Below, in pieces: positions 703 through 1,809 of a stretch of DNA of 64,000 nucleotides. The notes below the pieces were generated by a model. The model did no database searches and was not told where the DNA came from. It saw only the letters and a list, made by a program, of their open reading frames with translations. Source of the DNA: Fabrea salina (Eukaryota; Ciliophora; Heterotrichea; Heterotrichida; Fabreidae); contig JALIHJ010000042.1 of the NCBI GenBank assembly GCA_022984795.1, positions 62,001 to 126,000 on the forward strand. The letters run 5' to 3'. How positions within the stretch are numbered: the first letter of the stretch is position 1; the number at the start of each line of letters is the position of its first letter. The translations under genes and the position numbers were made by a program.

Positions 703-1809
703 TTACACAAAACCACAGCACTTCCTTTTGCTGACTTTTTTGGGTTTACTTGGCCTAATCTGGTGCCTAGGACTTTGCATAGTGATTTCCATACTTAAAG
801 CTGGCGAGTCTGTTCTAGGGTTGGTTTCTTGTTTGAGTGTTTTTTTAGGCTCTTTTTTAAGCTCAGGTTCAAATCCGTTTGAAGCAAACAAGCTTTCCAC
901 TAAAATGCTTGATCCTTGCTCTTTCTCTTCCCAGTGAGTGTTGAGTCCCTCTGCAAAGTTGCTTAGGATCTGGTCTATGTTTATGCTTTTGCGGGCTAAA
1001 CAGTTTGCTTTTTCGCATTTGTCTTTGACTTCCTGGACTTGTTCTTCGTCGTTGGTGTCAGTGTTTTTTAAGTCTTCAATATTTGACTCAGCTTCTTCAA
1101 TGCATCCCATGAGTCTTGAAAGTTTAACTTGGGTGTCTTCGATGTTTTGGGTCAGGTCTTTGATTTCTAGCCAGATTTCAGTTTGTTCGCGTACAAGTGA
1201 GTGGAGTTTATTAGAGGTGTTGGCAACTTGCTTTTCAAAGCAGACTAAGTCGTAGGCTTCAAGAAGCCACTTACACAGAGGCAAAAACTCTTCTTGGATT
1301 TTAGAGTCTCTGACCATAAGTGCTAAGTTGTGCTTTCTTTGAATATGGTGGACTGAGTCGAGTTCTTCTTGGCCTACTAAGGCAGCTGAAAAGTTCTTTA
1401 GGGCTTCTTGGAAAGGGTAAAAGTCCCTAATTAGTCTCTATGTAAAAGGTACCTTAAACCAACTCCAGGACGTTTCTGCAAACCCAAGCATTTTGCAAAT
1501 CCCTCCACTGATTTCTTGAATAAGTGCCATTGAGTTCCCTAGTTCTATGATGCTTTTAACTTGGTACTTGTGGACTGAGTCAGCTATAAACTTAAGCTCT
1601 TTCGCAGATTTTTTGGCTTTGGCAACTATTAGGTAGTGGTTTTTCTCGTTTTCTTGAATGTTTGACTTGCTTTTTTTAAGTTGGAGTTGTAATGAGTTGA
1701 GCTCAGCTTTAAAGCTCCACAAAGCTAACTTGTTGGACTCGATGCCTCTTTTGCAGTCATTTATTAGGTTCTGTTGTTCTTTGAGTAATCCTTTTATTAA
1801 ATCTGACAT
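703..1809 (-). CDS. Free dynein-stalk-like protein with C-terminal CaaX-type tail
   Basis: Two frames join in phase 0 across a 15-nt intron (1438-1452) to give 363 residues. The order is coiled coil (about 1-80), a globular segment (about 85-178), a second coiled coil (about 180-265), then a basic tail. The globular part lines up by eye with the microtubule-binding tip of dynein heavy chain. ICKMLGFAETSW matches the CLLLG..TTDW region, and LPLCKWLLEAYD matches the conserved KW helix that leads into CC2. There are no AAA modules and no linker, so it is a stalk without a motor. It ends SKRKCCGFV, a polybasic stretch with paired Cys and a terminal C-G-F-V that fits a CaaX box. I infer a membrane-anchored microtubule binder. 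The fold is a by-eye match and prenylation is untested. Confidence 0.65.
1438..1452 (-). other. 15-nt intron, phase 0
   Basis: On the minus strand it reads gtaccttttacatag. Removal joins ...SWSWFK to RLIRDF... and restores one frame across the dynein-stalk-like gene. If retained, the final TAG is an in-frame stop. Confidence 0.9.

Follow-up and report, generated by a model that had tools for sequence, protein, structure and literature searches.

Among the closest described systems to the protein reported here is the stalk and microtubule-binding domain (MTBD) of dynein heavy chains (PF12777). In passages of PMC6629372, the dynein tip is described as primed for binding, with an affinity that depends on stalk register and a grip that the distant motor switches through that register, and two stalk prolines are called universally conserved. 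The same passages report SRS-MTBD constructs, in which the tip sits on a short, register-fixed coiled coil, lacks a motor and still binds microtubules. Residue roles at the dynein-1 tip are given in passages of PMC12706001, where the residues forming salt bridges with tubulin include E3306 and R3384, and where human dynein-2 has a proline at the position of K3301. A description of a free or prenylated dynein stalk was not found in the titles and abstract beginnings of the open-access records listed, and the passages of PMC12338079, PMC6974359 and PMC9365671 do not describe a free-standing stalk; such silence is a weak argument that a free stalk is new.

A gene of the ciliate Fabrea salina encodes a protein that shares with dynein stalks the order arm, tip and arm, two tip tryptophans and a profile match over the whole hairpin. 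Unlike dynein heavy chains, it has no AAA ring, linker or dynein tail, has lost the prolines at the border of stalk and tip, and has a C-terminal tail of its own. The SRS-MTBD proteins are laboratory constructs held by seryl-tRNA synthetase, whereas the Fabrea protein is natural. With the tails of Rab and Ras proteins it has in common a polybasic stretch followed by CC near the end; those proteins carry a GTPase domain, but none was reported by hmmscan in the Fabrea protein, so it would be an unlikely cargo for presentation to GGTase-II by Rab escort protein.

The gene and the architecture of its product

The window analysed is a stretch of 64,000 nucleotides, bases 62001-126000 of contig C40, in an assembly of 18,328,466 bases and 103 contigs. 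The gene occupies 703..1809 on the minus strand, with its ATG at 1809 and a TAA stop at 705-703, and the frame 1809..703 is open except for a single in-frame TAG. Stretches of 15 or 16 nt of the form GT..AG were removed one at a time, and only one of the ten candidate removals, that of the 15-nt GTACCTTTTACATAG (1438..1452, minus strand, phase 0) within the tip-coding part, left a single open frame, with a spliced product of 363 aa (hereafter the window protein). In-frame 15-nt GTA..TAG introns were also read from the sequences of two related genes described below (L020 and L024) and of the Ras-family genes L043 and L061. A second 15-nt GT..AG stretch, at 749-735, could be removed with the frame preserved and would delete five residues of the tail; it ends in AAG, versus TAG in all five introns cited, and was kept as coding. 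The codon usage score of the gene, taken against 15 dynein loci, was +0.109; 500 synonymous recodings of matched GC content averaged -0.209 (sd 0.038), and none scored above -0.087. Because a single open frame results from intron removal, similar introns occur elsewhere in the genome and the codon usage is dynein-like, we conclude that the gene is very probably real.

Downstream of the gene, the end of a gene for the medium subunit of an adaptor complex (PF00928) was found. Upstream, about 40 bases (1810-1849) separate its ATG from an apparent divergent frame, recognised by eye, whose start codon would lie near 1850 and which would contain a GTAAGTTACAACTAG intron; positions 1936-2631 gave no Pfam match at E<=0.01. 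Beyond the divergent frame, a 1075-aa coiled-coil frame at 2645-5872 matches intermediate filaments weakly, at 21.4 bits against a cut-off of 40. On the same contig, a dynein heavy-chain stalk region (C40:56984-57949) ends about 4 kb before the start of the window.

The window protein falls into four parts, all encoded on the minus strand. Residues 2-82 (1564..1806) form a CC1-like coiled-coil arm, with a heptad contrast of 0.40 (p 0.0025, 2000 shuffles) and only two prolines plus glycines in 81 residues. Residues 83-185 (1240..1563, intron included) resemble the dynein microtubule-binding domain, as judged by the landmarks ETSWxxFK and PLCKW and by the profile matches given below. The second, CC2-like arm (residues 186-265, 1000..1239) has a heptad contrast of 0.63 (p 0, 2000 shuffles) and one proline or glycine in 80 residues. 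The remainder, residues 266-363 (706..999), is a probably flexible tail: heptads were not detected in residues 270-363 (p 0.70), where prolines and glycines together make up 11 of 94 residues. Near its end are the polybasic stretch KPKKVSKRK (residues 350-358, 721..747) and the terminal CCGFV (residues 359-363, 706..720), that is, CC together with a CaaX-like CGFV. The frame is complete and includes no AAA ring, linker or dynein tail, and no AAA family was among the 17 families that hmmscan reported for the product.

Single-sequence fold prediction, run on the unspliced frame with the in-frame TAG read as Q, so that the tip contained five residues encoded by the intron, gave a pLDDT of 52 and a pTM of 0.33. 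Foldseek with this low-confidence model returned 38 matches, all at E 2.5 or worse and not significant; one of the 38, 8glv_Co (E 3.7, likewise not significant), is a dynein chain.

Relationship to dynein stalks and to other motorless proteins

The Pfam stalk model PF12777 was not reported by hmmscan for the window protein even at E<=10, and a phmmer search of the PDB with the single sequence put mouse dynein-1 stalks on top at an E value of only 0.02. Comparison was then made with an alignment (A3) of stalk tips from the genome's own dynein heavy chains, 15 in number. PF12777 had matched 18 places, of which three were excluded: a match on contig C54 that is split into two halves, counted as two, and the motorless protein L018. 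In hhalign, the single window protein matched A3 with a score of 37.3 (E 3.4e-5, probability 72) over residues 90-191, the part without coiled coil. The best of 58 pieces of window ORFs, which included twelve overlapping segments of the 1075-aa coiled-coil protein nearby, reached 19.95 and the best of 100 shuffles 19.89. Joined with L020, the window protein matched A3 with a probability of 97.6, the decoys and shuffles having been scored against the single protein.

HMMs built with the window protein left out gave concordant results in a search of 1299 sequences, in which an entry was called unrelated if it was neither a dynein nor a motorless stalk. A model from dyneins only found the window protein at E 4.5e-5 (best unrelated entry 0.061), a model from dyneins plus L020 and L024 at E 9.7e-8 (0.026), and a model from L020 and L024 only at E 6.3e-5 (0.27). 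The window protein came after the dyneins and its motorless relatives and ahead of all else. A profile of the window protein, L020 and L024 (A6) was compared with the PDB; at E<=1 it listed 38 rows, of which the top 34 are dynein heavy chains; the best (E 3.7e-13) covers arm, tip and arm (profile positions 27-254). Four of these 34 (8glv_Cn, 8glv_Fm, 9fqr_Hl and 6rzb_C) are entered under other names and also match the stalk of the dynein-2 gene L015. Every row at E<=0.19 is dynein, and the last four rows, beginning with keratin at 0.25 and including laminin and a viral fibre, extend to 0.85, so that among PDB chains dynein heavy chains alone score better than E 0.25. In viral and prokaryotic contigs, 346 and 234 pattern matches were obtained and none was confirmed; no relative outside the Fabrea salina genome was found in these collections, eukaryotes being represented by PDB chains only.

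Homology of the window protein to dynein stalks is thus well supported by sequence comparison. The earlier note had read the protein by eye as a coiled coil, a dynein tip and a second coiled coil, with no AAA or linker parts. The heptad arms, the profile matches of the tip and the lack of any AAA family agree with that order, and the stalk match itself was borne out by the hhalign score against its controls and by the dynein-only HMM. The HMM search against the stalk family that the note had proposed gave a divided answer: the Pfam model fails to report the window protein, but models built from the genome's own dyneins find it.

Searching the genome with the window protein recovered L020 on contig C27 (E 6e-4), followed by the dynein gene L015 on contig C30 (E 0.028). 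A further locus, L022, gave a weak match (E 0.19). With L020 as the query, L024 on contig C34 came first at E 2.3e-60 with 41% identity, followed by the C30 dynein at E 2.7e-10 and by five dynein matches of lower significance. The query L024 gave L020, then the C30 dynein at E 0.0046, and a single faint match at E 0.08. The window gene was not recovered by the genome searches with L020 or L024 at E<=10, and its link to them therefore rests on the forward search, hhalign, the tree and the HMMs. L020 (317 aa) and L024 (325 aa) have their parts in the same order as the window protein. They have an intron position in common, which differs from that in the window gene. For PF12777, L020 scored 16.5 bits, below the cut-off of 24, and L024 was not reported at E<=1. 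These paralogues strengthen the reading of the window protein as a free stalk, and a divergent family of motorless dynein stalks with cysteine-bearing tails appears well supported.

In a fourth motorless protein, L018 (C30:114246-114896, 217 aa), the N-terminus resembles an F-box, at 22.5 bits slightly below the cut-off of 24.3, and is joined to a dynein tip scoring 28.9 bits for PF12777, over the cut-off of 24. Its closest dynein is the gene on contig C64 (E 3.9e-11). From these parts L018 is possibly a microtubule-targeted ubiquitin-ligase receptor.

The C30 dynein matched DYNC2H1 in the PDB at E 2.3e-63 and dynein-1 at E 4.6e-30, by which L015 is assigned to dynein-2. In a first tree, the window protein, L020 and L024 were grouped with support of 98/94 and placed beside L015 (72/79). 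When human dynein-2 and mouse dynein-1 were included, the three remained together (89/94) and the link to dynein-2 had support of 42/41. The window protein was a long branch of unsure place in both trees, with 2.42 changes per column in the first. A single origin of the three proteins is likely on these data. Origin from dynein-2 is one possibility: no dynein matches either the window protein or L020 better than L015 does in pairwise searches, but the 42/41 support does not favour this origin, nor does the A6 ranking of PDB chains, in which several axonemal and dynein-1 stalks stand above dynein-2. The serine before the tip tryptophan, which L015 has in common with the window protein, is not specific to dynein-2 in this genome. 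Derivation from the neighbouring dynein gene on C40 was also considered and set aside, the closest relatives being L020 and the C30 dynein instead.

Tip, tail and putative function

We propose, with about an even chance of being right, that the window protein is a static, lipid-anchored tether between microtubules and a membrane, in which a dynein stalk has become an independent gene; lipidation, binding and tethering are all predicted from the sequence. The two arms of about 80 residues would fold back on each other as an antiparallel hairpin and hold a dynein-type microtubule-binding tip. Because there is no AAA ring to shift the stalk register, the grip should stay constant, without gating by ATP. 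A flexible tail, about 95 residues long, would lead from the hairpin base to the polybasic stretch and CCGFV, which may be prenylated and/or palmitoylated and so seated in a membrane. The outcome would be a static link between a microtubule and a membrane. The tie to the cortical km fibres of Stentor that the earlier note had raised is a conjecture, and Stentor is probably not the genus in question.

The state of the tip bears on the binding step. Dynein-1 numbering was checked by six residue letters that agree at one offset. K3301 corresponds to K81, kept in the window protein and also lysine in L015. E3306 corresponds to S86, the glutamate being lost, and is E in L020, L024 and L018. R3384 corresponds to K165 and is H, R and R in L020, L024 and L018, respectively. 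D3334 corresponds to S114, and this serine before the first tip tryptophan is shared with the dynein-2 gene L015 and also occurs in L001, L002 and L014. The two tip tryptophans (W115 and W176 in the window protein) were found in 14 and 15 of 16 dyneins and in all four motorless proteins. The two prolines at the stalk-tip border are both present in 16/16 dyneins, and neither is present in any of the four motorless proteins. We take them to be those called universally conserved in the passages of PMC6629372. Their loss would fit a stalk in which register switching is no longer needed, and a free stalk without them may hold one register, the binding one.

As the salt-bridge residues have drifted (S86, K165), affinity for microtubules may be low or gone. 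The main rival to the tether is a dynein-derived stalk that has lost microtubule binding and, attached to a membrane, acts as a coiled-coil scaffold or as a spacer for some other partner. It would account for the missing counterparts of E3306 and R3384, for the absence of the PP of H1 and for the very long branch of the window protein, but the retention of W115, W176 and K81, and of the glutamate in L020, L024 and L018, speaks against it. We consider the scaffold about half as probable as the tether.

The window protein ends in KPKKVSKRKCCGFV, read directly from the sequence, and its last 30 residues hold 8 K/R versus 1 D/E. All 30 Ras-family tails examined, from 119 matches in the same genome, have CC or CxC in their last five residues, often preceded by lysines, e.g. 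KPKKKLKCCYKL. In a rough control on 185 distinct ORFs, each 150 aa or longer, drawn from the window and the collected loci and therefore Ras-enriched and containing many ORFs that are not genes, 31 had such ends; 30 of these lie in Ras-family loci and the remaining one is the window protein. The tail thus resembles, in sequence, the Rab-type tails of the same genome, and the earlier note's view of the polybasic stretch, CC and CGFV as a Ras/Rho-like end stood in so far as a Ras/Rab-like C-terminus is supported. Its expectation that orthologues would keep the C-terminal cysteines held in part among the two full-length paralogues: L020 ends in GCCRTKFFCF and L024 in GCCGIKFCFM, so that both keep CC near the end but have neither CC nor CxC in the last five residues, and neither has a CaaX. 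The 119 Ras-family matches in 18.3 Mb, some of them exon pieces, seem many for a small genome.

A CaaX box has a cysteine four residues from the end, followed by aliphatic a1 and a2 residues. In C360-G-F-V, the cysteine is at the CaaX place, with glycine as a1 and phenylalanine as a2, which we take to be a non-ideal, atypical form. A search for beta subunits of prenyltransferases found three encoded proteins, closest to those of farnesyltransferase (1.3e-90), GGTase-II (1.1e-87) and GGTase-I (4.5e-58). An alternative that would fit the window protein, L020 and L024 alike is palmitoylation of their CC pair. If the stalk were real and CCGFV incidental, the tail would be unlipidated and the protein would reside in the cytosol or in cilia, for instance as a spacer on microtubules. 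Such a protein would explain the poor CaaX and its absence from both full-length paralogues, but leaves unexplained why the window protein is the sole non-Ras locus among the 31 such ends and why both paralogues keep the CC; we regard it as rather improbable.

Two further explanations question the stalk itself. A plain coiled-coil protein, resembling dynein by shared coiled-coil composition, would be consistent with the failure of PF12777 and with weak matches to coiled-coil families (E 0.014-1). Against it stand a hhalign match that lies in the region without coiled coil, decoys from the neighbouring coiled-coil protein that score far lower, and the dynein rows that precede keratin in the A6 search. 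The argument is one of profile statistics and not of structure; on the hhalign decoys and the HMM ranking this explanation was rejected as having a very small probability. The divergent sequence and the dynein gene on the same contig might point to a remnant of a dynein heavy-chain gene in decay, but this was likewise rejected as highly improbable, since the frame is complete with its own start, stop and intron, the codon usage is gene-like, three flanking frames have no AAA match (Pfam, E<=0.01), and the closest relatives are L020 and the C30 dynein rather than the nearby dynein.

Taking the four motorless proteins together, we tentatively suggest, at somewhat less than even probability, that the dynein stalk has been domesticated in this genome as a general adaptor, perhaps on more than one occasion: three proteins with cysteine-bearing, probably lipidated tails would act as static tethers, and one with an F-box-like part may be a ubiquitin-ligase receptor. 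A natural motorless stalk without the border prolines would reveal a use of a permanently set dynein grip, and the window protein would be a small, testable candidate for tying ciliate microtubules to membranes.
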